Shown here in pieces: positions 5,587-52,948 of a stretch of DNA of 64,000 nt. The stretch comes from Candidatus Peregrinibacteria bacterium (GTDB lineage: Bacteria; Patescibacteriota; Gracilibacteria; UBA1369). The position numbers and the translations under genes are program-made. Numbering within the stretch: position 1 is the stretch's first letter; each line of letters starts with the position of its first letter. The notes under the pieces are model-generated. The model worked only from the letters and a program-made list of their open reading frames with translations, made no database searches and was not told where the DNA came from. The stretch is taken from NCBI GenBank assembly GCA_020851415.1, contig JADZCU010000045.1, positions 1 to 64,000 of the forward strand, written 5' to 3'.

Positions 5587-7008
5587 ATGTCTAAAAATAT
5601 TCAACATAGTGATCGTTTGACTACGAAAACTATTTTTTCAAGTCGTATGGTGTTTGAGAAAAAAGGAAGTGGTGATTCTGAACCGTATGAGGAGGTTGTA
5701 GAAATTGGATCGGAGAAAAAAGAGGGTGGGAAAAAAGATAAGGGAGCATTGAAGGCTGAGTATGAAAAAGCCCGTAACGATGTTCGTGAAAAACTGAAGA
5801 AGTTTGAAGATAAAAAAGGTCAGTACAAGGTTTTTTTGGATTATGCCGAGCAACGTTTAAATCAGGTGGATCGTGATTTGCAGCATTTTGACGTTCTGGA
5901 TGAAAAGCATATTCGCGATAATTTAAAAAGACTGCAAAATATTTTGATTTTTACTTTGGACGATTCACTCAAGGATCGCAGAAAAGAGATAGTGGCCATG
6001 ATTGAACGTCAGAAGAAGGCCGCGGTCAAAAAACTTGAAGACAGGGCGAAACAGCATGCCCAGATGCTTGCCGATGAAGTGAAACCGGAGACGCTTAAAT
6101 TTGCGCAAACTAAATTTAATGAAGTGAAAGCTCAGACAAATTTTTTGTTTAACTCCAGAATTCAGGCTGTTGATACCTCCATGTACAGAGCACAGGATCC
6201 AAAATGGGGAGATATGGCCACAAGAACCGAAACGCTTATGATTTATTTTCAAAGCGTGGAGGATGGACTGAATTCAAATGAAGAGGGATCTACAAATGCC
6301 GAAGCGGAAAAACTTTTTAAAGATTATGAAAGTGCGGTTCGCGGACAGTACTGTCTGGAAGAGACAAAACAGGGTGTTGCGGTTCACAAAATTCAGACGA
6401 TTTGTTTGGAATATAAGGTGAATTATGTGGATAAGAGAAAGGATGTTTATGATGCTTTTGATAAGCTTGGTGCTAAATACAAAGTGTTGATGGAAGGTGT
6501 GAAAGGCGCTGATGCTTATAAAATACAGGGTGTCATTTATGGCCAGTTTTTAGATGAGGTCCGTGAAATATATCGAACTTTATTGGCCGGAGATAAGGAT
6601 GTTCCTGTTCGAAATTTTGGTTTATCTGCAATGGATCAGGTGAACGCCGGCAGAAAGGCCAACGAGAAAAAATGGGATAAGGTGGATAGAAATGATGTGC
6701 GTCTTGTTGCGTATAGGCCAACCACTGAGTTTGTTATGAAAAGCGGTCAGGATATTCACTACCTGGCTGAGGGTGACGCGCCTGAGGGGATGAATGGTGT
6801 CGCTATTGATCATGTGCGTGGTGGTGAAACGGTTTTTCTGGTTGATCAAAATCCTGTGAAGGTTGGCGGGAAAGAGTACTTGCACGTTGAAGTGCGCGAC
6901 AAAAAAGGAAATGTTACTTCCGATGGCTGGGTTCGATCTGATGCTATGAACCCATTTGATGATACAAAGAAAAAAGCCGACAAGAAAAAGAAAGGTGACA
7001 TAGCTTAG
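5587..7008 (+). CDS. Uncharacterised coiled-coil protein with C-terminal SH3-like domain
   Basis: This 473-residue protein has no signal peptide or membrane helix. Residues of about 50-330 are charged and helical, with coiled-coil character. The last ~90 residues look like a bacterial SH3-type domain (HVEVRDKKGNV then GWVRSDAM), followed by a Lys-rich tail. The GWV element resembles the SH3-like segment of the 2028-aa protein at 46133-52219 (GWVKRSL). The N-terminus also carries a motif (SSRMVFEKKG) similar to that protein's NRLTFKKGG, so the two may belong to one lineage-specific family. A TATAAT box at 5555-5560 stands upstream, so the gene probably has its own promoter. Function unknown. 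Confidence 0.7.
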   Translation: MSKNIQHSDRLTTKTIFSSRMVFEKKGSGDSEPYEEVVEIGSEKKEGGKKDKGALKAEYEKARNDVREKLKKFEDKKGQYKVFLDYAEQRLNQVDRDLQHFDVLDEKHIRDNLKRLQNILIFTLDDSLKDRRKEIVAMIERQKKAAVKKLEDRAKQHAQMLADEVKPETLKFAQTKFNEVKAQTNFLFNSRIQAVDTSMYRAQDPKWGDMATRTETLMIYFQSVEDGLNSNEEGSTNAEAEKLFKDYESAVRGQYCLEETKQGVAVHKIQTICLEYKVNYVDKRKDVYDAFDKLGAKYKVLMEGVKGADAYKIQGVIYGQFLDEVREIYRTLLAGDKDVPVRNFGLSAMDQVNAGRKANEKKWDKVDRNDVRLVAYRPTTEFVMKSGQDIHYLAEGDAPEGMNGVAIDHVRGGETVFLVDQNPVKVGGKEYLHVEVRDKKGNVTSDGWVRSDAMNPFDDTKKKADKKKKGDIA

Positions 7009-21439: not shown

Positions 21440-22384
21440 ATGGCTTCAACTGAATTAGAATCGACGGGGCAACCGTTAGATCTTTCTGGTACTTCTCGTG
21501 AGGAATTAGAAGCTCTGGTGAAAGGTCTTGTTGGAAAACGTATTGTGTCTGCAGAAGCAGTAAATAACGAACTTGGTCAAATACGGGCAATAACCAGTGA
21601 GCGTGTAAATGCTGCGTCAGCAGTAACAAGTGAAAGTGGGCACGTTGCAGGTTACAGATCCCCAGCCTCAAAAGGTCCAGAAATTATCATCAGTTCACCA
21701 GAAAAGAAACTTTTAGGGAAACTTGAAGAAGATTATGAAAAACAAGCTGAAGATCTTCGTGCAACAGGTCAGGCAAATGAAGGTATGTTTAGTAGACTCC
21801 AAATTATCAAAGCTTTGACCCCTGAAGTTCTTGCTAAAGCTTTACGAATCGAAAAACTTGGTAAAGGCGCAACCATAAAAGGTCTTTTAATTCCTGATAA
21901 TGATCGCCACGGAAAGGTAACAGCAATAAATGGCAACAAAGTGTCAGGTCAAAAATATGACACGGCTTTCTATGATGAAGATAACAAAGATTTATGGAAT
22001 GGTGGACAAGAATGGTCTGAACGTGGCCAATGGCAGTACAAACTTTTTCAAGGAGAGCAAGATGTAGCTGATGATTCAAATATCCGAGGTACCAATTTCA
22101 AAAGATCAAAAGCATGGGTAACTAAAATAGAAAAAGCTGGCCTGGGTGTCTTTACCGGTGCTGACCCATATTTAGCTGCAATGAGACAAGCACTTATCGA
22201 AGGGAAACCTCTTGATCCAAACACATTCGCGGTTCTCAATGCTCAGAACTTGACAAATTCCTCGAGTGTGGCGTGCGGTCGTTGGGACGACGTTCAGGTG
22301 TACTTGAACTTCGATGGTCCTGATGATTCCAGCGCTGACCTTCGTGTTCGTGCGTTGGTGGGGGTAGATGTGCCTAGGGTTTAG
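21440..22384 (+). CDS. DGR variable target protein (C-type-lectin-like C-terminus)
   Basis: This 314-residue protein ends in the variable repeat (residues about 274-306). Its C-terminal ~150 residues (from about DTAFYDEDNKDLWNGGQEW) look like a C-type-lectin or formylglycine-enzyme-like fold of the kind DGRs diversify. The invariant GRW and LRVRA elements flank variable positions. The N-terminal half is helical and polar, with no signal peptide or membrane helix, so export would need another route or the protein is cytoplasmic. Compared with the template, variable codons have become Ser, Cys, Arg, Asp, Val, Tyr, Phe, Gly and Ala. Its own promoter and terminator flank it. Confidence 0.9.
   Translation: MASTELESTGQPLDLSGTSREELEALVKGLVGKRIVSAEAVNNELGQIRAITSERVNAASAVTSESGHVAGYRSPASKGPEIIISSPEKKLLGKLEEDYEKQAEDLRATGQANEGMFSRLQIIKALTPEVLAKALRIEKLGKGATIKGLLIPDNDRHGKVTAINGNKVSGQKYDTAFYDEDNKDLWNGGQEWSERGQWQYKLFQGEQDVADDSNIRGTNFKRSKAWVTKIEKAGLGVFTGADPYLAAMRQALIEGKPLDPNTFAVLNAQNLTNSSSVACGRWDDVQVYLNFDGPDDSSADLRVRALVGVDVPRV
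22260..22355 (+). repeat. DGR variable repeat (VR)
   Basis: This 96-bp core matches the template repeat at 22730-22825 at a constant offset of 470 bp. It differs at 17 positions, and every one is an adenine in the template: ten A to G, five A to T, two A to C. The last 18 bp (22338-22355) are identical. Partial similarity continues to 22373 with mismatches also at non-A positions, as expected for the IMH region that sets homing direction. Confidence 0.95.
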
Positions 22385-22406
22385 CCTTTAATTCTTGATT
22401 TTTCTT

Positions 22407-22440
22407 AGCCTCCGCCGCAGCGGGGGCTTTTTTCTTTTTA
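22407..22440 (+). terminator. Terminator after the DGR target gene
   Basis: AGCCTCCGC and GCGGGGGCT pair around CGCA (one T-G pair), followed by a T-rich run. It lies 22 bp after the target stop and separates the target transcript from the template region. Confidence 0.85.
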
Positions 22441-22729
22441 CTTTTAATTCACAAAGTTTTACTCTTTCATCAAGTGGTGAATAGTCACCTGGGTTCGAAA
22501 ATTTTTGGTTGAGCCGCAGGCTACCACGCGTTGTCTCTCATCAAAAGGTTAATAAACTGGTTTTGCAGTTAGCAAGACTCCAGTAGGCCTTGAGAAAACA
22601 ATAAAGCAAAAAGCACATCTGCCCTCACGATTGAGCTCAGCTTATCCCGCTTGTCGGGATGAAAAAGCAAACCAATGCAAACATAGTGGTTGCGACTGCT
22701 GTTGTTTTACTGGAAGGGCTGAGTCATGA
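22441..22729 (+). other. Non-coding DGR leader between target terminator and template repeat
   Basis: These 289 bases have no supported gene. They contain a short hairpin (ATCCCG CTTGT CGGGAT) near 22647-22664. In known DGRs the template RNA starts upstream of TR and continues past it, so the template RNA promoter should lie here. I see no convincing -35/-10 pair. Confidence 0.45.
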
Positions 22730-22825
22730 CCTCGAATGTGGCGAACGGTAATTGGAACAACGATCAGGTGAACTTGAACAACGATAATCCTGATAATTCC
22801 AACGATAACCTTCGTGTTCGTGCGT
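22730..22825 (+). repeat. DGR template repeat (TR)
   Basis: This is the invariant template for mutagenic retrohoming into VR. In the VR-matched frame it is dominated by AAC and AAT (Asn) codons, the usual design because adenine mutagenesis of AAY reaches many residues without making stops. Similarity to the VR flank extends to 22843 with non-A mismatches (IMH*-like). A plus-strand frame through it (22726-22908) is not a gene. Confidence 0.95.
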
Positions 22826-22835
22826 CGGTAAGGGC

Positions 22836-23183
22836 TTATGTGCTTTGCGTTGCCTTTAACCAGCCGCCCAGCATTCTACCTATCTCTGCGAGCTTGGCTT
22901 GCAGTTGAAATAACTTGGTTTCGTTCACAAGTTTTAATTCAAGTAACAAACGGAGTTTTAATGTGCTGATTTCGAGCTTTGCTATGGCTTTTAATAAATA
23001 TCCTGCCTTGAGCGGTTTAGGTGCAGATTTTGCCATTACCAGAATTTCCATGCAATCAAGAACAGAGTTTTCTAAACCTAATCCCAGGCTGTTGCGCCAA
23101 CGCTTCTCGAGTTTGTTGTTCAGGTCTATAATTGCTTTATAAGCTTCATAAGTTTTGTTGATTATGGGGAGTGTTGAGTCCAT
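22836..23183 (-). CDS. DGR accessory variability protein, bAvd family
   Basis: From the ATG at 23183 this encodes 115 residues with the bAvd four-helix-bundle pattern. It starts STLPIINKTYEAYK, continues with LGLENSVLDCMEILVMAK, and ends in the hallmark AEIGRMLGGWLKA. Avd proteins form a basic barrel-shaped pentamer that binds the reverse transcriptase and the template RNA. The gene is on the strand opposite to TR and RT. Its 5' end overlaps the RT start by 20 bp, and its 3' end lies 11 bp from the TR core. It is therefore antisense to the whole region just downstream of TR, where the spacer RNA is found in studied DGRs. A longer frame to 23237 has no family support. Confidence 0.88.
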   Translation of the reverse strand: MDSTLPIINKTYEAYKAIIDLNNKLEKRWRNSLGLGLENSVLDCMEILVMAKSAPKPLKAGYLLKAIAKLEISTLKLRLLLELKLVNETKLFQLQAKLAEIGRMLGGWLKATQST

Positions 23184-24181
23184 AGATTTGAGTTTAGAGA
23201 ATATTTGGAGGAGCTGGTTTGAGTTCAAGAAAGGCAAGCGTTTTACTTTTGAGCTGCATACTTTTCAGTATTACCTCGAAAAAAATCTTTACAAACTTTT
23301 TCTGGATTTGAATAACGGCTGTTATCGGCATGGGAGCTACAAAAAATTCATCGTTTGCGACAACAAACGACGTGAAATTTCGGTTGCTTCGGTGCGTGAC
23401 AGGGTGGTGCACCGATTGATGTATGATTATTTGGAAAAAATTTACGACAAAACTTTTATTTATGATGCCTGGTCTTGCCGAAAAGAGAAGGGATTGCTTG
23501 GTGCTATTGAACGAACGCAGGAATTTTTGAAACCATTGAGGAAATACCCCCCCCTATAACCTTAAAAATGGCTATGGCAAGCCGTTTGCCTGGGTTTGGA
23601 AGTGCGATGTGAAAAAGTTTTTTGATAGTGTCGATCAGGAGACTTTGTTGAAAAATTTTTCGTTGCGCATCAAAGATAGTACAACTTTGAATCTGTTAAA
23701 AGAAGTAGTCGGCAGTTTTACAACGGTTGCAGGAAGAAAAGTGGGTATACCAATTGGCAATCTCACGAGCCAGATTTTTGCGAATATTTATCTGAACGAG
23801 TTGGATCGATTTGTGAAACATACATTAAAAGTAAAGGCTTATTTGCGGTATGGTGATGATTTTATTTTATTGGAAAATGATTTGGGAAAACTGAAACTTT
23901 TTCGAGCTCAAACTGTCGATTTTTTGAGAAATGAACTCAAATTACAGGTGAATCCTAAAAGTGATAGAATCATCAAACCTGCGCATGGGCTTAAATTTTT
24001 AGGGATAAAATTTTGGCCTTCAGGAAGAAACTTAACAAAACGAAATCTTAGGCGAATTCAATCAAGGCTTAACACCAAAAATATCTCAAGTTATAGCGGA
24101 TTGATGAAAAAGCATGGAAATAGTAAACAGGTGAAGCGATTTAACTGGTTGGTTTATGAAAAGCTATTTACCGACGAGTAA
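23164..24181 (+). CDS. DGR reverse transcriptase, split by a one-base frameshift
   Basis: Two frames together encode a complete DGR-type reverse transcriptase of about 338 residues. The first (23164-23559) carries the N-terminal part (IWRSWFEFKKGKR, SVRDRVVHRLMYDYLE). The second (open from before 23609 to 24181) carries KCDVKKFFDSVDQ with the first catalytic Asp, the DGR-specific IGNLTSQ in place of QGxxxSP, and the YGDD box at about 23849. They join in a run of eight C's at 23547-23554. Removing one C gives the smooth reading RKYPPYNLKNGYG. The break is a sequencing error, a phase-variable tract, a translational frameshift or a recent mutation. VR is heavily diversified, so the system has worked. 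Confidence 0.9.
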
Positions 24182-41672: not shown

Positions 41673-41703
41673 AAGAAAACCCCGTTTGTGGCGGGGTTTT
41701 CTT
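41673..41703 (-). terminator. Bidirectional terminator of the surface-protein operon
   Basis: AAGAAAACCCCG and CGGGGTTTTCTT pair perfectly around a short loop, with A/T tracts on both sides. On the minus strand it lies 67 bp after the stop of the 1376-aa gene and should end the 11-kb operon. Confidence 0.88.
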
Positions 41704-41770: not shown

Positions 41771-44700
41771 TTAGCGTGCTACATCACTTTGGGTGACCGT
41801 TAAGATGTCGCGGAGGCCTGGCGGGGTGTTCAAGATAACACGTTCATCGAAACGAATTACTATTCCGGCTTCTTCCTGGGCAGGATCGCCTGCATAGAGG
41901 CGGCTGAGGAAGAGTGGTTCGATGTCGCCGTAGACTGAACCGAAGATTTCGAGTCTGTTGTCGTATGTTTTGGCGCTGTCACCTGTGTTGCCAGGGGATC
42001 CTGGGTAGAGGTGGCCTTTGTCGCCTTGACCTTGAACGAAGAATACTCCGGACATTTCTGTGACTGATGGGTCTACGTAGACGTTACCGCCGAGAACGAT
42101 GAAGGCGAGAGACGCTGTATCTGTTACGTTACATACTCCTCCGTTTTTGTTGCATGTTCCGTACTTGATGTTGTTTTTGATGATCAGGTCGCCGTCTTCA
42201 ACGATGATGGTTTTTGCTCCTTCACCGTCTGAGAGTGTGTAGTCTTGGTCTACTGTGAGGCTGCCTTTGACGCGGAGTACCTCAAGGTCCGGATTTGCGC
42301 CGGCAAGAGCTGCGAGCGATGTTGAAATGGTTGATGTTGGTTTCCAGCGTGAAATGCGGGTTTTGTTTTCTTCGATGCTGTTCACGATAGTTGTTTTTTT
42401 CCATTGTTCACCCGGTTGGAGTTTTACCTCACAAATCTGGCTTGAAAGGTTTTCCGATACACCTTGGCCATAGAATGGTTTGAGTGCAGGATCCAAACTT
42501 CCGGTTTGTCCTTCTGTACAGATTTCGTGACTGATGGAAACGATTTCTGTTGGGATACCGGTACTTGGTGTGTTTGGTGGTGGAGGTGGTGCTGGAGTGA
42601 GAATTACACCGGTTGTGCTCTTGTATTTAGAACATTTGCGGATATCTACACCTGCATCCAGATCTTTTTCCAGATATACGTCGCCGGCAGCACGAGTGAG
42701 GATGTACTGACAGAAGAGTTGTACTGTAGATGAACTGAAGAGTGGGTTGTCGGATTCAAGGAGTACTTCATCGTTTTCGTCTACTACTTTGTACTGAGCG
42801 CGAGCAACGTTGACGAACTTTTCCTGACAGATTTTTCCTTCTTTACAGCTGGCTTCTGTGAGTACAGGAGCTACTTTACCCTTGTATGTGATGGTAACCG
42901 GATTGCTTACTTTTACGAGTTCAATGCCGTTTAAGTCGGGACCGTTGTAGCAGTGTTCTTTGTCTGCATCATCAGCGAGTGAAGTACATTCTGGAAGATC
43001 ACCGTAACCTGCTTCTGAAATGTTTAAGCTGTCGTCGTAAGTAATTTCTCCGCCCGGTTGTGCGCCATCTTCACCGTAGGTAATGCCCGGGATGCCCTGG
43101 TCGATAGTATCGGTGATGAAGGCGATAGTGTTTGGTTCAGATGGTGTGAATACGAGTTTGTATTCTACAGATGTTTCTGTTGTGGCTACGCTTACTACTT
43201 TACGGTAGTCTTTGCCGATACGTCGGACATATTTTTCCAGAGTTGGAGGACGTTTGCCGGTATTGCGGTCGTCGTCACGGCAGGCTGCGTTGTTTGGTTC
43301 GTCTGTCGCATAGAGGTCGTACTCTGTGTTTGCCGGTACTTCTACACAACCTGGAACGTATTTAGTTTTTGTTTGGTTGCCGTATTCAATAGTGAAGCGA
43401 CCGTTTTTGTCGATGTATTCATTGTTTGAGTCGACACAGATTTCGAAGTTGCCGTTTGGTAACTGTTTTTCTGTTGTGTCGAAGTATTCACATTTTTCGT
43501 TTTCGTTTGGTTTCTTGAATTTGTGAAGATCTTTACATATTCCCAGGCTGCTATCCGGAATGCCTGTAATTGAGAGTACTTTTACTCCGGCTTCTGAATT
43601 GTCGGCATCGTTTGCTTCAAATCTTGTGAAGAAGTTTTTGCCGAAAGATTCTTGCTGGTTTGAGCTTGTTTCTGCCGGAGAGAAGTTGTCGAAGTTTCCG
43701 TCACCACTCCATTGAACTGTTGTTTCATGTGGGAGGCCGTCGTCGTTACCAATCAATACTGTGGCGTGAAGATTTGTTGTTCCATCTTCATCGAGTTTGT
43801 TTGGATCGAGTACGAGACCTGCACAGTATGGTTCGTCGTTGTCAGGTGCGTCACTTTCGGTTATTTCACCCTTACAGATGGCTTTATTGCCATTGTTTGG
43901 CTCGGCTTCAAAGCTGCCTGATCCTGTGCCGTCCGGACTTGCGTTGTAGTAGTAGTCACAAACGTATGGGGCAGAGAAACTTGTATTGGCTGAATGCGGG
44001 TCTGATGGAATTGGACATGTTCCCGGGAAGAACGCGTTGGCGAAGTCGCTGGTTGGGCCTGTTGTGAACCAGCCGTCACCGTTTTCTGACCAGTGAATAT
44101 TTGATGGTTTGGTTCCATCTGTGTTTTCCGGGTCGGCTTTAATGAGTACACTTCCGCCTGCCGGTACATCGATTGATGAACCAGGAGTTGCATTGAGTGC
44201 TTTACATTCGTTGTCCGGAGGAGTGTCAGTGATGGTTGTGCCGTTCTGACAAATTGGAGAGTTATCAACACCTACCGGGACGCTGGTAACTTTTACGTTT
44301 ACTGAAGCTGTGTCGGATGATGTGTTATAAGTGTTGGTGAAATTTGTACTGCTTGAGTGCGTTTGTGTTGTTCCACTTGAGAATGTACCGCTACCAACCT
44401 GAGACCAGGTTACTCCTGTGTTGTAACTGTTGCCGTCAGAGTAGGTAACTGTGGCACTTAAAGGTGTTGAACCCGGAGCTGTTAAGCCTGAAGGTGACAG
44501 AGTAATACCAGTACAGTATGGGTTTCCACCTGGTGGATTTTTTACTTTTACGCCGGCTGCACATTTTACCGAATTGGCTGCGCCTGTGATGGCTGTAACT
44601 TTCGCTGTTACTTCACCGGTATTTGCCGCTGTGTTATATGAGTTGGTGAAATTTGTACTGCTTGAGTGTGTTTGTGTTGTTCCACCGGAGAATGTACCAC

Positions 44701-45901
44701 TGCCAACCTGAGACCAGGTTATTGTTGTGTTGTAGCTGTTACCGTCGTCGAATGTAACAGTTGCCGTGTAGTTGGTTGTACCTGGGGCGTTTACTGTTGC
44801 AGGAGTTAAAGTGATGTCTTCACAAACTGCGTCTGGTGGCGGTGGAGTTGTTGGTTTCCATACTGTTGTTACTGTACCGATTGGTACCCAGTAGTATTTT
44901 GCTGTTGTGTTTACCGGATCACCGTATGGTCCTGGTGATGAATTGTTATATACTTCCGGATTGCTGGCGTAATCTACCGCACACCAACCGTTGCTTGGAT
45001 TGCTCAAATTTGGTTTATCAGGACAACTTGGAGACAGGTTATAGTTGTTTTTATTTCCTGTATAAAGTACTGCGTCACGAATCAGTACTCGTGATGTTGT
45101 TGTTCCTGTCCAGATTTTTGCCGGACTTTTATCATTTGCTTTGAGATATACGTTCATACCTTCCTCTGAATCCATTACTCCATTGGTGTTTGCCGGGAAG
45201 GAACGGTTGATATCTGTGCTTGTATTGAATGGGAAAATTTGTGGTGAGTCGCCGATATCTACTCCCGGGTTTTCACCTGATTCCCAAGGTTTTTTTGACC
45301 CGTCTACTGTACCAAAATCCCAGCGTAAAATTACTTTTCCACCGGAATTTGTTCTGGTGAGTTTGATTCCACCAAAGTGGTTTGGATCGTTATCTGTGGC
45401 ACCATCTACACAATTTAAGAAATTGTCGTATGTTGTGCCTGATTGGCCACCGAAGACAGGACATTGTAATTCTCCCAAATCGGTATTGTTTACTGCATCG
45501 CTTTGGACTGTGATTTCAAAAGCTGCGATATAGGATTTGTAGTAAAAATTGTCTTGAACGGAATTGTTGTAATAAAAATGACGGTGACGTGTCCATGGAC
45601 CGTGAATGTTATCGTCTATAGCAGCCTGTTGGACTGTGTAAACGTTCTGAGCATCACTGTCAGATATTGGATTGTGTGGACCAGGGTATGGAGCATGCGT
45701 TTTACATGCGCTCTCGCTGAAATATTTAAGATATATGCTGGTATCACCCGCTGCATATACCCCACTTGGATTGAACGGATTGAGCATTTCCGTACAGTCA
45801 GGGCCGATTGCTCCGCCGACTGCGGCTGATGCCATCTGTCCGCCCAAACTTGCTGCCACTAAACTGGCAGTGAGCAAAAGATGTAGTGTTTTGTTTTTCA
45901 T
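41771..45901 (-). CDS. Large secreted surface protein with Ig-like repeats
   Basis: This 1376-residue protein has a clear signal peptide (residues 1-26, ending ASA). About 330 residues of Tyr/Asn-rich sequence follow. Two near-identical Ig-like repeats of about 103 residues share TWSQVGSGTFS and TTQTHSSSTNFTN. More cysteine-containing beta-rich modules follow. The last ~250 residues resemble surface-exposed beta-sheet modules with SLAFIVLGGNVYVDP and MSGVFFVQG. There is no LPXTG motif or C-terminal membrane helix. Many cysteines suggest disulfide-stabilised domains. Likely an adhesin or S-layer-like protein. It is the last gene of a four-gene operon, starting 11 bp after the 68-aa gene. Confidence 0.82.
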   Translation of the reverse strand: MKNKTLHLLLTASLVAASLGGQMASAAVGGAIGPDCTEMLNPFNPSGVYAAGDTSIYLKYFSESACKTHAPYPGPHNPISDSDAQNVYTVQQAAIDDNIHGPWTRHRHFYYNNSVQDNFYYKSYIAAFEITVQSDAVNNTDLGELQCPVFGGQSGTTYDNFLNCVDGATDNDPNHFGGIKLTRTNSGGKVILRWDFGTVDGSKKPWESGENPGVDIGDSPQIFPFNTSTDINRSFPANTNGVMDSEEGMNVYLKANDKSPAKIWTGTTTSRVLIRDAVLYTGNKNNYNLSPSCPDKPNLSNPSNGWCAVDYASNPEVYNNSSPGPYGDPVNTTAKYYWVPIGTVTTVWKPTTPPPPDAVCEDITLTPATVNAPGTTNYTATVTFDDGNSYNTTITWSQVGSGTFSGGTTQTHSSSTNFTNSYNTAANTGEVTAKVTAITGAANSVKCAAGVKVKNPPGGNPYCTGITLSPSGLTAPGSTPLSATVTYSDGNSYNTGVTWSQVGSGTFSSGTTQTHSSSTNFTNTYNTSSDTASVNVKVTSVPVGVDNSPICQNGTTITDTPPDNECKALNATPGSSIDVPAGGSVLIKADPENTDGTKPSNIHWSENGDGWFTTGPTSDFANAFFPGTCPIPSDPHSANTSFSAPYVCDYYYNASPDGTGSGSFEAEPNNGNKAICKGEITESDAPDNDEPYCAGLVLDPNKLDEDGTTNLHATVLIGNDDGLPHETTVQWSGDGNFDNFSPAETSSNQQESFGKNFFTRFEANDADNSEAGVKVLSITGIPDSSLGICKDLHKFKKPNENEKCEYFDTTEKQLPNGNFEICVDSNNEYIDKNGRFTIEYGNQTKTKYVPGCVEVPANTEYDLYATDEPNNAACRDDDRNTGKRPPTLEKYVRRIGKDYRKVVSVATTETSVEYKLVFTPSEPNTIAFITDTIDQGIPGITYGEDGAQPGGEITYDDSLNISEAGYGDLPECTSLADDADKEHCYNGPDLNGIELVKVSNPVTITYKGKVAPVLTEASCKEGKICQEKFVNVARAQYKVVDENDEVLLESDNPLFSSSTVQLFCQYILTRAAGDVYLEKDLDAGVDIRKCSKYKSTTGVILTPAPPPPPNTPSTGIPTEIVSISHEICTEGQTGSLDPALKPFYGQGVSENLSSQICEVKLQPGEQWKKTTIVNSIEENKTRISRWKPTSTISTSLAALAGANPDLEVLRVKGSLTVDQDYTLSDGEGAKTIIVEDGDLIIKNNIKYGTCNKNGGVCNVTDTASLAFIVLGGNVYVDPSVTEMSGVFFVQGQGDKGHLYPGSPGNTGDSAKTYDNRLEIFGSVYGDIEPLFLSRLYAGDPAQEEAGIVIRFDERVILNTPPGLRDILTVTQSDVAR
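44333..44766 (-). repeat. Two-copy internal repeat in the surface-protein gene
   Basis: Segments at about 44333-44457 and 44642-44766 are near-identical at a 309-bp offset, equal to 103 codons. They encode the conserved core of two consecutive Ig-like domains. Matching third-codon bases indicates a recent duplication or gene conversion. Confidence 0.85.
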
Positions 45902-45912
45902 GGTGTCAAAAA

Positions 45913-46119
45913 TTAAATATCAGCGGGAGTGGCACCGGCAGCCTGCAAATCTGTTGAAATTACGGCCGGTGGTGTGTTGGTATCACCAGGAAGTGAACCA
46001 TTTTGTTTTGTTACCTGGTTCATTGAATTCAAACTGACCAGAAGCACGAGAACTACTACTGCAACGATGGCAAATTTGAATCCAAGATTGTTTTGTTTTT
46101 TGTTTTTATGTGTAGTCAT
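45913..46119 (-). CDS. Small single-pass membrane protein, 68 aa
   Basis: A basic N-terminus (HKNKKQNN) precedes one transmembrane helix at about 14-32 (FKFAIVAVVVLVLLVSL). A short polar tail ends in GATPADI. The neighbouring 2028-aa protein ends in GATPDDI, and the last codons and stop of both genes are almost the same DNA. It lies between the 2028-aa and 1376-aa genes with gaps of 13 and 11 bp. It may be an assembly or anchoring partner for the two large proteins (inference). Confidence 0.7.
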   Translation of the reverse strand: MTTHKNKKQNNLGFKFAIVAVVVLVLLVSLNSMNQVTKQNGSLPGDTNTPPAVISTDLQAAGATPADI

Positions 46120-46132
46120 AGTGGATTAATTT

Positions 46133-49100
46133 TTAAATATCGTCTGGAGTAGCTCCACCGCCAGGGGTTGGAGTTGTATCAACTTTACCCGGTGGTACTT
46201 TTGGTGTTTCACCTTCCGGCATGTCTCCGGTTGTGCTTCCTTCAGCAGCTGGTGCTGGTTCTTCTTTTGGTGGATTTTCACCCGGTGGTTTCTTTGGTGG
46301 GGGGATATCATCTTTCTTTCCAACATCAATCGTAACAACACCTGCGATACCAAAGCTGATAAAGCGGGTAACTGTTTCCGGTGATACTGTGGCTACGGAC
46401 TCTTTGCCGCCGGCAACAACCATGCCTTCGCCGGGTTTGATGCGGGCGAAGATTTGGAGACCTTCGTTGACACCGAACGATGCGTTTCCACAACGTGCGT
46501 GTGCTGCGTCTGCAACTTTTGTATCAAGACGGAATTCGAATGAGTTGCCGTTTTCAGCTGTGTAGATGAATACGTTTCCTCCTTTTAACTGTGTTTCACG
46601 AATACTGAGGAGTATTTTTTTGAATTCATCGTATCCTTTGTTTCCTTCAACTTTTTCACCCTTTAATGCTTTTTCCATACCTTCAACGGCCTGGTTTGCC
46701 ATACTGTCACCCAGTACGAACCACATACCCGGCATTGAGATAAGTTTTTTAGCGAGAGGGGATTCCATCATGGCCTTGTCGCTCTTGCGATCAAGGGGAC
46801 TTTCGAGTTCCAGGATTACTTTGGCCAGATCACCTTCGATTCCAGGTTTTGTAAGGTCTACTTCGCTTAAACCAAGTACACCATATTTATCTTGTGAAAT
46901 GTAACCTGGTACTCCACGAAGACCTGTACCGATAGCACCTGCAACTGAACTGAAGAGCCAGTTTGGACCAAGTTGTTTTCCCGGTTTACCAAGTTCTTCA
47001 TCTTTTACATTGGTGCGAAGACGTTTTATAAGGTAATCAACGAGTTGCTCTGGAGTGCTTGTGAAAGTGAAGCCTCTGTCTGTGAGCTCTTTTACCTTGT
47101 TACGGAAGAATGGTAGAAGGACTGCATTTTTTGACCATTCAAGGTTTGATTCAAAGCGGGCGCGTTTGTCGCCAGCTTTTTCTAATTCGCTGAAACTCAA
47201 ATCCATGAGCTCTGACATTACAAAGTTCATTTGAAGGTCGGAGAGTGCTGCACCAACTCCAACTGGCGCTTTTTCTTTTGCGTCTTTTTGAATGAGTTCT
47301 GCAAGTTTGCGTCTCTTTTCGTTTACTACTTCTTCACTGTCTGTTGGCTTCACTGTTGTGAGTTCTTTGTATTGGGTTAAACGGCGAGGTAAGAACTTGG
47401 AACTGAAACTTTTGAGTTCTTTTACTTTTTCTGGAGTGAGATCCGGTTCTGGATCTTTTACGAATGGAAGCTTGTTAATACGATCTTCATAAGCTTTCCA
47501 TTTTGTTTCATCGAAGCCAGATACTTTTTCGGTAAAGGCTTCAAAATTTGCCTTGAATTTCTCGTAGGCTGCTGCGTCCATTACGTTGCCGTTTGCGGCG
47601 TTTGGGGCGCTGATAATTTCCCATTCTTTTCCGGCCTTACGGTAGAGATAAGCTCCGGACTGTTCTACTTCGCCACTGATTTCGCTGCGTGAGCGTTTTG
47701 GCGTGTCTGTGAGCGTAATGATAGTATTTTGGTAGAAACCTTTCTTTGGGAATGGTGTGAAAAACTCTTCACGAGTGATGAAAAGTTCTGGGTTAGCTCC
47801 TGGAGCTACATAGACTTTTCCATCTTTCAAAATCAGGCCTTTCTTTTCCATGCCTGGGTCCATGTATATTTCCAGGTTCCCAAGTGCGCCAAATATTTGG
47901 AGTTCAAGAAGTCCCGAACCGTCTGGTACCAATTTCATGTCATATGGTTTGAGAGCTTCGTTATATTTTTCAACGCTTGGTTTATCTTTGAATGGTGCAA
48001 GATCAACTTGCTGAGTGCTTTTGCGGACAGCAATATTACCTTGAGCGTCAACAATTACGTCGCCACTTTGACCAGCTTTTGCTTCTTTGTATACAGCGTT
48101 TCCTTCCGGATGCTTCTTTTTAACATCTTCCATAATGAGACGTTGTGCTTCAGCTTCGGAAACTTTATCCATCTCTTTTGAAGATGCAGAAGGACGACGA
48201 TATACGTACGTTGTTTTATCAACAGTAAATGTGAGATAAGGTCCAACCCATGGGACTGGAACTCCACCAATCATGGCAAATCCTGCAGCAATGCCAAATC
48301 CTGAAACGATTGGATTTGAATTTTGTTCTGCGGCTTTACCGGAGATGCTTGATCTATGAGCTTCATAGAGATCGAGTACTACTTGTTTTTGATCTTCGAG
48401 TTTTGGAAATTCTGCAGCTGCAGAACGATAATATGCTCCAATCTTCGGATTGTTGATAATGAGCATGTATTTCTTATCTGGATCTTTTTCTTTATCGATT
48501 TCTGCTGGATCAAATCCACCAATCTCTTTTTCAAGATTTTGATGTGCTGCTTCGAAATTTTTGGCAAAACCAATACCACCTCCGGCACCGGCAACCAATA
48601 CACCAACGCTTCCACCGACAAAGGCTTTCATGTCCCATGCGTCAGAAATTGGCCATGTAACATCTACTGCTGCACCAATGCTTGGTCCTGTAAGACCAAT
48701 GCCCGGGCCGACTGATACGCCGATTTCTGTACGTTTTTTTTCACCCAATTTCCAACCTTTGCGAATGGCGATTCCAAGCATAGGTTGTGGATGATCGGCG
48801 ATACTATCTACACCGATACCAACCATTAACGTGAATCCGTCGCCAAGATCTACGCCAGTTCCCAGCCCAAGGCCGATAGCCTGGTTGACCGGTTTTGTAG
48901 TATCTACTTTAATTGCGAGACCTCCAAGGAAGATACTTTCAATTTTCTTTACGTTTTCTTTTGGATATCCTTGAGCAATGGCAGCTTCTTGAGCTTTGCG
49001 GATCATGGGGTTCATTGAGAGTTTTGACTCAATGCCTTCAGAGCCTTCCACAAGGCCTTTTTCTTCGTCACGTGAATCAAAATAGTAACCCATTTTGATG

Positions 49101-52100
49101 AGATCTTTACGATCTTCAACGAGCTCTTTGTATTGAGGAACATCCTCAGGTTTTGCTTCGAGATCGGCAAAGTTATTGATTTTTAATTTTTCAAAAGCGC
49201 TTTCTACAGCACCGGTAAGCATTGGAGCAAGTCGCGCAGCGTATGCTTCATTACCTTCACCGGCATCTTGTGCGGGAAGTACTACCGGGTTATCTGGACT
49301 GTATTTGTTTAAGAAAGCCACAACCTCTTTTGGGTTGTTTTTCCAAGCGATTAAACGCTTGAGGGATTTTCTCATTAAACGGTTAAACTCTTTGACGGTC
49401 TCGGCTTCACTGATGCGTTCAATGCCATCAAGTTCGCCAGTTTCGTTTGTATATTTATTGAGACGACTTCTGAGTCTTACGACAGGAGCATTTGCATCAA
49501 AGTATTGATTAAATCTGCTGACCGCATCTTTTTCCTGTTCTGTTCCTGCGACAACATCTTCCCAAGAAAATTTACGACTACCTGGATTTTCCTTTGCCCA
49601 TTTTTCCTGGTCTGCATCTTTGAATACAGCTTCCATGACTTCAACACTGCGTTTAGTTCCGGGAGCCATTTGTGAAGCTTCTCTTAAGGCAGCTCCTTGA
49701 TCAACTTTGAACTCTTTGACTTCAAGCTGACCGAGCGCTTCCAGGAGTTGTGCACCTTCGAAAAGTACGTAGTTTAAATAACCAACATTACTTGAAGCTA
49801 AGCGGTATGCATCCCAGGCTTTATAGTCTGGATCATCTTTTACTGCGCTTAATGCTTCGGTTGCGGCAACGTACTGTTTTGCCTGATCTTTTGTAAGGAG
49901 AGCAAATTCATCCAGACCTTGTGCTCTTGCCAGGCGCATTTTTTCTTCCACAACCAGAATAACTTCTGTTTGTTTCAAAATTCCATCGCCTTTTTTGGCT
50001 TCAAAAGCTTTCATGCCAGCTTCGTTCTTCTTCATGATGCTGGAATATTTTTCCAGGTCAGAAGTAAAATCACTGTATGAACCAACTTGGTCAGCTCCAC
50101 CTAATGGATTGGTTTTTCGGTAGATGCCAAGATAGTTCACGATATCTTCAAAATCCACTTCTTTGTTGCTGTATTCCTGAATTAATCCGCGAATTTTTTC
50201 ACGTGCATTTCCTTCAGTGACTCCAGCTTCTGCAAAAAGGGGATGTTTGAGTACACCAATGAGTTTATTTAAACCCACTAATTCACTGTTGGTATCGCCG
50301 TTCCAAGCTTTGCGGAATGCTTCATCGTCATCGACCACCTCCAGAAGACTGGCACGGAGTGTCACTTTATTTTTCATGTATTTATCCAGATCTGCTCGCA
50401 TAGCTTTTTCTGCACCTTCACGATTTTTTTTGAATTTTTCTGAATATGCTTTCGCACGGTCGGAGTATTTTTTCTCTGCCACTTCTGCTGCACTTGGGGC
50501 GCCTGCTTCTGCTGGTGTTGGAACTACAAAGTATACGGTATTTAGAGACTGATATTTCTTTAAAAGCTCAATATATTTTTCTGCTGTAATACCTGTACTT
50601 TTGATTGCCGGTAACTGTAAAGCTTCATCGGCAAGAGCTTCATATGTGTCACCAGGTTTGAGAACACGCTTTTCAAGGTATGTTCTGCTTGGGGCTTCCG
50701 CCATTGCTTCAGCTTTCCATCGAGGAAGGACTGTGTAGTTATTGTAAATTTTGGCGCGTTCACCACCCTTGTAAAAATATTGACCTTTGGCTGCGTCAAA
50801 TTTAGCAACACGTGGGTTGCCACCCGGAGCTTTGATAACGATTTCATCTCCGTTTTTCTGATTTGGGAAAAGGTCGCCAAGTTTTACTTTCATTTCTGCT
50901 TTGTAATCAACTTTTCCTTTATCATCTACGAAACTGATTTTTCCCGTGTCAGGGTTGTAATATTTTTTCTGTACGGCCGCTTCTTTTTTCTCTGGAGCCG
51001 CTTTGTAGGCAACCTCCGGAGCTTTTGCTTTGGTCTCAACCAAACTTCGTTTTACCCAGCCACGATCCGTTCCACCCTTTTTGTTGATTTCAACATACAA
51101 ATACTCATCATTGCCAACTTTACGAATTTTATCGCTGACAACTTTGAGCTTGTCTCCAGCCTTAAATTCGCGGAGCATAAGACCTGTTTTGCCGTGGTAT
51201 AAAACTCCTTCCATTTTTGCATCACGTTCTGTGAGTTCGGCTTTTTCTTCTGAATAGTCTGCTTTTTTTGTCCATTCACTTTCAGTTTTTACTGATTCAT
51301 TTCCTTTGAGAAGGGTTGAAAGTTCAATCCAACCGGATCTTTTCCCGTCCAAATCTCTAAATACTCCAACGATGTCAGCCTCTATATAGACAAATTTCGC
51401 CATGGTTCCACTTTCGTTTGGAGCCTGGACTACATATGGTGAAAGAATTGTTGCAGCCACTTTTTGGATATTTTCGTTGGTCATAGTTAACTTACCGCTT
51501 TCTCCATAGAGAATGGCAAGTCTGTCCATAGCACGACTCATACGTACTCTTGCTTTTGTTCCAGCTTCAACTTTTTCGGCTGAAAGATTAATTTGTTCTT
51601 TTTTTAATTTGGGAAATGATTTGAGAAACTGGCCAAGGACTTCCTTTGATGGGTCTTCTTTTGGTGCTTCATCTTTTTTAGCCGGCGCTTCCTTTTTTGC
51701 GTCGTCCGGTTTTTTTTCTGGTGCGCCAGGTTTTTGCGGGCCCTGGTCGATTGCTACGCCTTTTGGTTTGAGTTGAGCTACTTCAGGAAGGTTTCCGTCT
51801 TTATTGCTGAATACAAACTTTCCCTCTTTATTGATTGTGACATTTTCAACTTTTTGTGATGCCAAAAATTCCCAGAAGGATTTAACATCACCTTTTGGGT
51901 CTGATTTTTTTACCGCTTCGTCGATCGCTTGTTCCATTTCCATGGCAAACAGTTCCTGCTTTTTTTTGCCGGTATAGACTTTTTTTGCGATTTCTTCGAG
52001 ATTTTTTTTATGATCTTTATCAAATTTTACCCCTTTATCTTTGCCACCGTTGAGGATTTTATCAATCTCTTCAAAAGTTTTGTCTTTTTCCTTATCTCCA

Positions 52101-52219
52101 GTTGGCTCTTCTGCTTGAACTTCAGGGCCTCCTTTTTTGAAGGTTAGGCGATTTTGAACTGCAAAGCTGTGATACAAGTCTGTTTTGCAGACGAGCAGTT
52201 TGTTAGTTGATTCGAACAT
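46133..52219 (-). CDS. Giant 2028-aa multidomain protein, uncharacterised
   Basis: No signal peptide is visible. Residues of about 25-34 carry NRLTFKKGG. A domain at about 70-120 (NLEEIAKKVYTGKKKQE to KSFWEFLASQ) is related to one in the 190-aa protein next door. A Lys/Ala/Pro-rich linker follows, then an SH3-like domain at about 325-395 (GWVKRSL). A long helical region runs to about 1100, and a Gly-rich beta-strand block covers about 1105-1220 (GLGTGVDLGDGFTLMVGIGV, IGVSVGPGIGLTGP), resembling membrane-barrel strands. More mixed domains precede a Pro/Gly-rich tail ending GATPDDI. Function unknown; a surface or cell-wall scaffold is possible. Confidence 0.8.
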   Translation of the reverse strand: MFESTNKLLVCKTDLYHSFAVQNRLTFKKGGPEVQAEEPTGDKEKDKTFEEIDKILNGGKDKGVKFDKDHKKNLEEIAKKVYTGKKKQELFAMEMEQAIDEAVKKSDPKGDVKSFWEFLASQKVENVTINKEGKFVFSNKDGNLPEVAQLKPKGVAIDQGPQKPGAPEKKPDDAKKEAPAKKDEAPKEDPSKEVLGQFLKSFPKLKKEQINLSAEKVEAGTKARVRMSRAMDRLAILYGESGKLTMTNENIQKVAATILSPYVVQAPNESGTMAKFVYIEADIVGVFRDLDGKRSGWIELSTLLKGNESVKTESEWTKKADYSEEKAELTERDAKMEGVLYHGKTGLMLREFKAGDKLKVVSDKIRKVGNDEYLYVEINKKGGTDRGWVKRSLVETKAKAPEVAYKAAPEKKEAAVQKKYYNPDTGKISFVDDKGKVDYKAEMKVKLGDLFPNQKNGDEIVIKAPGGNPRVAKFDAAKGQYFYKGGERAKIYNNYTVLPRWKAEAMAEAPSRTYLEKRVLKPGDTYEALADEALQLPAIKSTGITAEKYIELLKKYQSLNTVYFVVPTPAEAGAPSAAEVAEKKYSDRAKAYSEKFKKNREGAEKAMRADLDKYMKNKVTLRASLLEVVDDDEAFRKAWNGDTNSELVGLNKLIGVLKHPLFAEAGVTEGNAREKIRGLIQEYSNKEVDFEDIVNYLGIYRKTNPLGGADQVGSYSDFTSDLEKYSSIMKKNEAGMKAFEAKKGDGILKQTEVILVVEEKMRLARAQGLDEFALLTKDQAKQYVAATEALSAVKDDPDYKAWDAYRLASSNVGYLNYVLFEGAQLLEALGQLEVKEFKVDQGAALREASQMAPGTKRSVEVMEAVFKDADQEKWAKENPGSRKFSWEDVVAGTEQEKDAVSRFNQYFDANAPVVRLRSRLNKYTNETGELDGIERISEAETVKEFNRLMRKSLKRLIAWKNNPKEVVAFLNKYSPDNPVVLPAQDAGEGNEAYAARLAPMLTGAVESAFEKLKINNFADLEAKPEDVPQYKELVEDRKDLIKMGYYFDSRDEEKGLVEGSEGIESKLSMNPMIRKAQEAAIAQGYPKENVKKIESIFLGGLAIKVDTTKPVNQAIGLGLGTGVDLGDGFTLMVGIGVDSIADHPQPMLGIAIRKGWKLGEKKRTEIGVSVGPGIGLTGPSIGAAVDVTWPISDAWDMKAFVGGSVGVLVAGAGGGIGFAKNFEAAHQNLEKEIGGFDPAEIDKEKDPDKKYMLIINNPKIGAYYRSAAAEFPKLEDQKQVVLDLYEAHRSSISGKAAEQNSNPIVSGFGIAAGFAMIGGVPVPWVGPYLTFTVDKTTYVYRRPSASSKEMDKVSEAEAQRLIMEDVKKKHPEGNAVYKEAKAGQSGDVIVDAQGNIAVRKSTQQVDLAPFKDKPSVEKYNEALKPYDMKLVPDGSGLLELQIFGALGNLEIYMDPGMEKKGLILKDGKVYVAPGANPELFITREEFFTPFPKKGFYQNTIITLTDTPKRSRSEISGEVEQSGAYLYRKAGKEWEIISAPNAANGNVMDAAAYEKFKANFEAFTEKVSGFDETKWKAYEDRINKLPFVKDPEPDLTPEKVKELKSFSSKFLPRRLTQYKELTTVKPTDSEEVVNEKRRKLAELIQKDAKEKAPVGVGAALSDLQMNFVMSELMDLSFSELEKAGDKRARFESNLEWSKNAVLLPFFRNKVKELTDRGFTFTSTPEQLVDYLIKRLRTNVKDEELGKPGKQLGPNWLFSSVAGAIGTGLRGVPGYISQDKYGVLGLSEVDLTKPGIEGDLAKVILELESPLDRKSDKAMMESPLAKKLISMPGMWFVLGDSMANQAVEGMEKALKGEKVEGNKGYDEFKKILLSIRETQLKGGNVFIYTAENGNSFEFRLDTKVADAAHARCGNASFGVNEGLQIFARIKPGEGMVVAGGKESVATVSPETVTRFISFGIAGVVTIDVGKKDDIPPPKKPPGENPPKEEPAPAAEGSTTGDMPEGETPKVPPGKVDTTPTPGGGATPDDI

Positions 52220-52251
52220 ATGTGTGGGGTTTTAATTTTTATTTTTTATAA

Positions 52252-52824
52252 TTAAGCTTGAGTAGAAGCATTGCCCTGAATTTCGGCAAGCAATGCCATA
52301 AGATCACTTTTGGTTTTTGATATTTCTTTTTGACGTTCTTCACGTAATGTTTCGTGTAAATTGCTTTCTGCGCGGATTTCAATTGGCTTCAAAAATTGAG
52401 CGATACTGATTTCTTTTTCGCCTTTTACTCCTGCAAAAAATCGAAGAATACCCTCGATTATTGCACTGGTTTGGCAAAGATTCTCTCTCAAGTATTTCCA
52501 CAGAGATTCCATATTTTGGCCTTCTTTCAAATGGGCTTCGAGCGATGCTTTAATTTTTTGGCCGTAGCGCTCTTGTTCGGCTTTATTGCCCGGATAGGCT
52601 TCCTGAGCCAGCATTTGAATGTTTTTCTCGGGATTTGGTGAAAAACGGGTCTCCGCATTTAACGGTTCTTCCATGCGCTCTTTCCTTTCCATGGCTTTTT
52701 CGGCCAGACTTTTATCAGCTGATTCAAGTTTTGCCGCGCCTCCATTAAGGTAGACAAAACGTTTATTCTCAGCTGTTTTTAGAATTCCGGATTCTGATTG
52801 AATTGGCGAGTGGAGGTGAGTCAT
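52252..52824 (-). CDS. Uncharacterised 190-aa protein, first gene of the giant-protein operon
   Basis: Its residues of about 66-115 (EKNIQMLAQEAYPGNKAEQE to ESLWKYLREN) align with about 70-120 of the 2028-aa protein. Its N-terminal KRFVYLNGG resembles that protein's NRLTFKKGG. So it looks like a short paralogue of the giant protein's N-terminus. The rest is helical and Glu/Lys-rich. There is no signal peptide. It precedes the giant gene by 32 bp and is divergent from tpiA, so the operon promoter lies at 52825-52948. Confidence 0.7.
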   Translation of the reverse strand: MTHLHSPIQSESGILKTAENKRFVYLNGGAAKLESADKSLAEKAMERKERMEEPLNAETRFSPNPEKNIQMLAQEAYPGNKAEQERYGQKIKASLEAHLKEGQNMESLWKYLRENLCQTSAIIEGILRFFAGVKGEKEISIAQFLKPIEIRAESNLHETLREERQKEISKTKSDLMALLAEIQGNASTQA

Positions 52825-52948
52825 GGTCGTTTTGGTTTTTATTTTGGGTTTTGAAAATCTTTAAATTATAGCAAAAATGGCAATAAAGGTCAAACTTGCC
52901 CCTTGGGACGGTCTCCAGTAGATTGTTCGTAACTCTAATGGATTTTTT

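Follow-up and report, generated by a model that had tools for sequence, protein, structure and literature searches.

Four adjacent minus-strand genes, two of which encode very large proteins, were noticed in the genome of a member of Candidatus Peregrinibacteria (Patescibacteria), within a window of 64,000 nucleotides, that is, the whole stretch of DNA analyzed here. The original prediction, made from the sequence alone, was that these genes, encoding proteins of 190, 2028, 68 and 1376 amino acids (aa), are co-transcribed and may specify a cell-surface machine peculiar to the lineage. Do these genes indeed constitute a conserved unit, and what could hold their products together?

A conserved operon between TPI and holA

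The following features delineate the locus, in the order of transcription (gene boundaries are from ORF calls):

52865-52893, minus strand, promoter-like site TTGACC-17-(TG)TATAAT, 40 nt upstream of the first start codon
52252-52824, minus strand, gene for the 190-aa protein
46133-52219, minus strand, gene for the 2028-aa protein without signal peptide (hereafter, the giant)
45913-46119, minus strand, gene for the 68-aa protein with a single transmembrane segment (TM) (hereafter, the small protein)
41771-45901, minus strand, gene for the 1376-aa secreted protein with Ig-like domains
41673-41703, minus strand, terminator hairpin GAAAACCCCG...CGGGGTTTTC followed by a T-run, 3' of the last gene

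The coordinates, sizes and intergenic gaps (32, 13 and 11 bp) originally given for the operon are reproduced by the ORF calls. The predicted co-transcription is consistent with the short gaps, the near-consensus promoter in front of the 190-aa gene (11 of the 12 consensus positions and an extended TG) and the one strong terminator after the last gene, which reads as bidirectional. The operon is flanked by holA downstream and, in the divergent orientation, by the genes for TPI and HPF upstream. Searches of Pfam and NCBIfam recognized no family in any of the four proteins, in agreement with the initial assessment.

Comparison of gene neighborhoods across the order, whose members are tiny and uncultured, revealed a conserved unit: a divergent TPI gene, then the giant, the secreted protein and holA, with the 190-aa gene (before the giant) and the small gene (after it) as optional parts. 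The secreted protein is present in 37 of the 41 nearest genomes (31 of the 33 good ones), and almost every one of the 16 sampled families of the order is represented. Pairwise comparison detects the giant in 16 of the same 41 genomes, and a profile of its last part matches 56 of the 89 genomes of the order, with a match in only one genome of family f13. On the gene maps, a giant-family protein directly precedes the secreted-protein gene in nearly every genome in which that side is in view (about 23), on the same strand and with at most one small gene in between. Downstream of the secreted-protein gene, holA is found in most genomes; the upstream flank, where in view, holds TPI in 13 genomes and an HPF-like gene in three. 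Thus the giant and the secreted protein stay together nearly everywhere among the relatives, which clearly runs counter to the condition given for refuting the original prediction (no relative keeping the genes together), and the retention of this block across many families of the order implies that the arrangement of ORFs is not due to chance. The exception is G015, where a holA-like start lies 26 nt downstream of the giant gene and no secreted-protein gene is present at this place. The small gene is missing from most genomes of the order. Where complete, the giants of the relatives span about 1570-2280 aa; the one in G027 is longer than 3300 aa (more than 3371 aa, running off the available stretch; L081:9384-19499, minus strand). 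The divergent TPI gene is kept beside the giant operon across the order (L067, L084, L078, L083) and is therefore a convenient anchor for locating this locus.

The suggestion that the unit is lineage-specific holds for the full gene set, which was seen within the order only, and does not extend to the C-terminal domain of the secreted protein, a portion of which recurs in other Patescibacteria and is the only, partial match found outside the order. A scan of named contigs with this domain identified 30 loci, most of them labeled Candidatus Peregrinibacteria, Gracilibacteria or Peribacteria; the rest are unresolved Patescibacteria or 'bacterium', together with one Nitrospirota locus that is possibly a binning error.

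Elsewhere in the window, a diversity-generating retroelement (21440-24181) comprises a target ORF (21440-22384) with a variable repeat (22260-22381), a template repeat (22730-22851), a bAvd-like ORF and a reverse transcriptase frame broken between 23559 and 23609; 19 of the 26 differences between the variable and template repeats fall at template adenines. Another gene (852-2690, minus strand) encodes a 612-aa protein with a lamin tail domain (PF00932, E-value 1.6e-21).

The secreted protein is a predicted chain of Ig-like domains

The features of the secreted protein are as follows:

45824-45901, minus strand, signal peptide MKNKTLHLLLTASLVAASLGGQMASA, recognized in the sequence
45572-45586, minus strand, HxHx(Y/F) motif in the conserved N-terminal domain (motif search)
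44595-44815, minus strand, Ig-like repeat 1 (DNA repeat copy, repeat comparison)
44286-44506, minus strand, Ig-like repeat 2 (DNA repeat copy, repeat comparison)
41771-42736, minus strand, conserved C-terminal domain, aa 1056-1376

The signal peptide and the two Ig-like repeats, which are 221 nt long, 75% identical and spaced by 309 nt, uphold the initial description of this protein as secreted and Ig-repeat-containing. AlphaFold2 modeling of a full-length relative (L108, 1160 aa) yields a chain of beta-sandwich domains, and Foldseek retrieves one S-layer protein along with Ig chains, for example, those of titin, contactin and A2M; these matches are all generic and have low TM-scores, so that only the general fold is claimed here. 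An HxHx-aromatic-type motif is present in 20 of 39 sequences of the family, compared to about 1.2 expected from shuffled sequences; the family also has conserved cysteines and, near the end of the C-terminal domain, the segment RVILNTPPGL (RIxLNTPPGL in homologs). No SLH domain was found with Pfam or NCBIfam, and PDB sequence searches with the C-terminal domain and with the whole protein returned nothing useful. The combination of a signal peptide with tandem Ig-like domains, the latter taken from the structure prediction for the relative, places the protein among Ig-like-domain surface proteins, and we conclude that it is a Sec-exported chain of Ig-like domains, with the fold assigned by prediction.

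S-layer proteins form a crystalline lattice at the cell surface. The secreted protein resembles multi-Ig adhesins and S-layer-associated proteins in its signal peptide, Ig-like domains and conserved cysteines but differs from them in that its C-terminal domain belongs to no known family and that it is tied to the giant and, in some species, to the small protein. The same genome encodes a second exported protein, of 966 aa, with a related C-terminal beta domain (L190:10242-13142, minus strand, contig C75), and many Patescibacteria carry similar exported proteins with a related beta domain, often of about 600-1200 aa. In one patescibacterial genome (G258), the C-terminal domain of the secreted protein (C2:316087-316587, minus strand) is found within one uninterrupted reading frame of 25,343 aa.

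The giant and the small protein share a species-specific C-terminal tail

The small protein from the window, initially described as a membrane protein, contains a single TM, with an N-in/C-out orientation according to the charge distribution. Three types of small protein occupy this position in the relatives, namely single-TM proteins of about 49-77 aa with a basic N-terminus; lipoproteins of 47-69 aa (a lipobox is found in G029, G020, G014, G384, G040 and G387); and, in family f7, proteins of approximately 163-178 aa that combine a TM with a cohesin-like domain. The latter domain matches PF00963 in one of the three f7 proteins (E-value 0.0018), at 18.9 bits, below the curated cut-off of 24.1, and was accordingly not accepted as evidence of a cohesin-type anchor. 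Judging by these sequence features, the small protein is a membrane anchor, either a single-TM protein or a lipoprotein, and all three types should place the C-terminus outside the cell.

Within a species, the giant and the small protein end alike, whereas the tails differ between species, even within families. In the window, the two tails were delineated by comparison:

46136-46156, minus strand, C-terminal tail of the giant, GATPDDI
45916-45936, minus strand, C-terminal tail of the small protein, GATPADI, matching that of the giant

Other giant/small protein pairs include NPDQSG/NPDQSG (G009), GTGDL/GTGSL (G376) and VPTE/VPE (G029) and, in newly added species, TAAGRR/QAAGRR (G375), SGAGV/SSAGV (G386), SSV/FGV (G163), NTF/QNF (G040) and two weaker ones; in G378, also newly added, 16 residues align (TQAAPQSSGNIDTTGF / TQIAPQSTGIIDPSGF). 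The small ORFs were picked by position and length, never by the tail. Among the 12 species of the discovery set, the last residue is identical in eight, compared to 1.6 expected under permutation of the pairs; p is the smallest value that the permutation test can yield and is still about 1e-4 after removal of the two best pairs. Seven species outside this set replicate the match for both the last three and the last five residues (p = 1.9e-4, about 1 in the 5040 possible pairings and the minimum attainable). For all 19 species, the last residue is identical in 13 (2.1 expected; p = 5e-6, the lowest value attainable) and the last three residues are identical at 30 of 57 positions (5.7 expected), all these p-values being approximate because the species are related.

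The shared tail residues can be encoded quite differently in the two genes. In G009, all six codons of NPDQSG have changed synonymously (AAC CCT GAC CAA TCC GGC / AAT CCG GAT CAG TCT GGT), as have five of five codons of shared tail residues in G375 and three of three in G386. An identical peptide under different codons indicates that selection acts on the peptide rather than on the DNA, and such saturation rules out recent DNA copying as the general cause of the match; a copying event may have occurred in G378, where the alignment extends over 16 residues. A related explanation is that, through duplication or gene conversion, the small gene repeatedly captures the 3' terminus of the gene for the giant, leaving a peptide devoid of function. 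The adjacency of the two genes and the long G378 alignment fit this scheme, but full synonymous divergence under identical peptides (G009, G375) requires selection on the peptide and the similarity is concentrated in the terminal residues, which makes a vestigial tail very unlikely.

We therefore conclude that the giant and the anchor share a species-private C-terminal peptide that is under selection at the peptide level. In whole-genome pattern searches, the tail was found in the giant and the small gene only (G000 and G009); in G001, where the small gene is absent, the tail was not found in any other gene, the one other site encoding a different residue at one position. The giant does not require the shared tail, given that most genomes of the order lack the small gene.

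How could such a tail work? Substrates of sortases and of the PEP-CTERM/exosortase system carry a conserved motif followed by a TM and basic residues at the C-terminus. The tails described here appear, as in those systems, to be short C-terminal peptides that are read as tags, but they vary from species to species without a conserved motif and end freely, with neither a TM nor a basic tail behind them. Alternatively, the tails could pair homotypically, the identical C-termini of the giant and the anchor forming a beta-zipper. This arrangement would require no reader and would account for identity that is kept without a fixed consensus, but the tails consist of few residues, with G, S, T and P abundant among them, the matches often involve only 2-4 residues, and giants without an anchor gene still bear such tails; hence we regard direct pairing as unlikely. 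The reading that we prefer involves a third protein that recognizes both tails (see below). We know of no described system with matched species-private tails, and our library searches, whose scope did not include bioRxiv and most subscription journals, retrieved none. The matched tails suggest a cell-surface machine not described before, in which a species-specific tag holds the parts together, and, in this indirect manner, lend support to the 'machine' of the original prediction.

The giant combines an N-leader, a variable half and a predicted barrel-like segment

The features of the giant are as follows:

52139-52219, minus strand, N-leader ending in RLTF (order consensus R[FLM][VI][FY])
46325-49312, minus strand, conserved C-half, aa ~970-1965, homologous across the order
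48560-48922, minus strand, 8-strand antiparallel beta-barrel-like segment, aa ~1100-1220 (AlphaFold2, Foldseek and hydrophobicity alternation)
46490-46492, minus strand, invariant Cys codon of the KCxN motif, aa 1910

Iterated profile searches delineate a variable N-half and a C-half of about 1000 residues whose homology extends over nearly all giants (most domain E-values range from 1e-70 to 1e-287). The protein ends in a disordered tail. Five residues, D, R, R, C and N, are invariant across 20 giants; the C and N belong to the KCxN motif near the C-terminus. As stated initially, the giant has no signal peptide: neither a Sec signal peptide nor a hydrophobic N-terminal segment was found in the giants examined. 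The protein is nearly free of Cys, and its N-half is highly charged. PDB sequence searches with the N-half gave nothing useful, and the best matches of the C-half, to de novo designed helical or repeat proteins (E-values from 3.5e-4 to 0.1), were judged to be due to composition; in the searches with the operon proteins, weak matches to Cas9 WED (E-value 0.63) and FctA (E-value 0.29) fell below the cut-off and were rejected.

Most giants start with a leader of about 15-27 residues, mostly basic and not acidic, with R[FLM][VI][FY] or a closely similar motif at its end and an acidic stretch behind it. The 190-aa protein, which has homologs in four other genomes of the family, carries such a leader with RFVY and is a stand-alone version of the N-terminal domain of the giant; the similarity is weak (E-value 0.01) but in line with its initial description as a small paralog. 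A scan of the proteome of this bacterium, covering about 56% of the genome, found R[FLM][VI][FY] nine times at residues 8-45 of proteins compared to 1.3 expected. Several of these carriers (219-1794 aa) are charged proteins without a known family that are encoded next to helical proteins of approximately 110-140 aa. The helical neighbors belong to a single family, present in 18 of 26 relatives (L203-L228), and the pairing recurs in other genomes of the order and is apparently Peregrinibacteria-wide. Because other large proteins have the leader as well, the giant seems, from its sequence, to be part of a wider leader-bearing class. Pairs of this kind in the genome of this bacterium are located at C32:1-18100 (L148), C9:5139-7223 (L125) and C44:8946-11064 (L160); in the window, a 473-aa protein without a Pfam family (5587-7008, plus strand) contains the leader motif SSRMVFEKK.

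An AlphaFold2 model of aa 960-1968, built with 20 sequences, has a mean pLDDT of 67; values of 80-95 are reached over much of the final 250 residues. Within aa 1100-1220, eight antiparallel strands follow in a run, at a pLDDT of about 45-67. With the model at this level of confidence, Foldseek matches the segment to a de novo designed transmembrane beta-barrel (TMB), 6x9z (E-value 4.6e-4, TMt 0.79); OprF (TMt 0.70), OmpA (0.65), PagP and OmpX are matched as well, the probability being 1.00 for OprF, OmpA, PagP and the designed TMBs, and a viral library returned the same kind of proteins. An independent test of the sequence is in agreement: across 18 homologs, hydrophobicity alternates along the segment with a mean z of 2.6, compared to values from -1.1 to 1.1 in comparison regions of the domain. 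Thus structure prediction, the check proposed with the original prediction, gave an Ig chain for the relative of the secreted protein and a barrel-like meander for the C-half of the giant, the latter only at the pLDDT given above. With moderate confidence, the C-half is predicted to hold an OmpA-like 8-strand beta-barrel.

BAM-dependent outer membrane proteins (OMPs) have at least eight amphipathic antiparallel strands that close into a barrel and a Sec signal peptide, and are encoded in genomes with Omp85/BamA; in two-partner secretion, an Omp85-type TpsB transporter adjoins the TpsA exoprotein. The segment of the giant resembles OmpA, OprF and PagP in its predicted 8-strand antiparallel meander with alternating hydrophobicity. 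Unlike these proteins, it is embedded in a 2000-aa protein that lacks a signal peptide and shows no Pfam sequence similarity, in a genome that, like its relatives, is without Omp85/BamA: PF01103 was detected in none of 21 genomes, whereas the control search found it in seven named genomes. Neither this search nor the gene maps revealed a TpsB-type transporter beside the giant.

The lack of a Sec signal, the near absence of Cys and the charged N-half imply that the giant could be cytoplasmic, for example, a scaffold or structural protein at the inner face of the membrane, with a soluble meander and with co-transcription ensuring dosage. The absence of BAM machinery and the occurrence of the N-leader in other cytoplasm-like proteins are compatible with this possibility. 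Against it stand the OMP-type barrel signature, itself a prediction, and the tail that the giant has in common with a protein whose C-terminus is outside, as in the lipoprotein versions. We regard a cytoplasmic giant as unlikely. Of the predicted surface location, the part concerning the secreted and small proteins stands, on the strength of the signal peptide and of the TM or lipobox, respectively; in the case of the giant, devoid of known export signals, we infer a position at the cell surface.

A tentative model of a cell-surface assembly

The explanation that we consider best, if at somewhat less than even probability, is that the operon encodes an order-specific cell-surface assembly in which the tails are docked by one reader and the giant is exported by a non-Sec route. 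Under this model, the tails of both the giant and the anchor would be docked outside the membrane by a single co-evolving reader, for which the neighboring secreted protein is the most likely candidate, and the Ig-chain would thereby be tied to both. Export of the giant would follow a route marked by the N-leader R[FLM][VI][FY], and the beta-barrel segment of the giant would be the membrane-inserting part, acting in the membrane of its own cell or in that of a partner cell. The low pLDDT of the barrel, the features of the giant that would fit a cytoplasmic protein, the putative status of the tail reader, the absence of the small gene from most genomes and the lack of the secreted-protein gene at the G015 locus count against such an assembly.

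The assembly might serve attachment to, or contact with, other cells. Such a role has been proposed for the unusually large surface proteins reported from related candidate phyla, namely, the large extracellular proteins of Peribacteria (PMC4736985) and the giant proteins of Vampirococcus (PMC8080830). These accounts apparently include neither the conserved operon nor the non-Sec giant nor the matched tails of the present locus.

In a broader and quite improbable extension of this model, the locus would exemplify a new principle of envelope assembly, whereby a private C-terminal address docks a barrel-bearing giant onto a secreted Ig stalk without BAM, following leader-guided export by a route not described before. 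This proposal jointly entails that the address peptide co-evolves in lock-step in the giant and the anchor, that the leader is common to many large Peregrinibacteria proteins and that several leader-bearing proteins are paired with small helical partners.

The matched private tails are an unusual and directly testable sign of physical partnership, and an OmpA-like barrel without BAM, if real, raises the question of how such barrels are exported and inserted. Patescibacteria are a very large bacterial group in which host attachment and the envelope are poorly known. With 11 kb of the 1.4-Mb genome taken up by it, the order-wide unit is likely to be important for this lineage.
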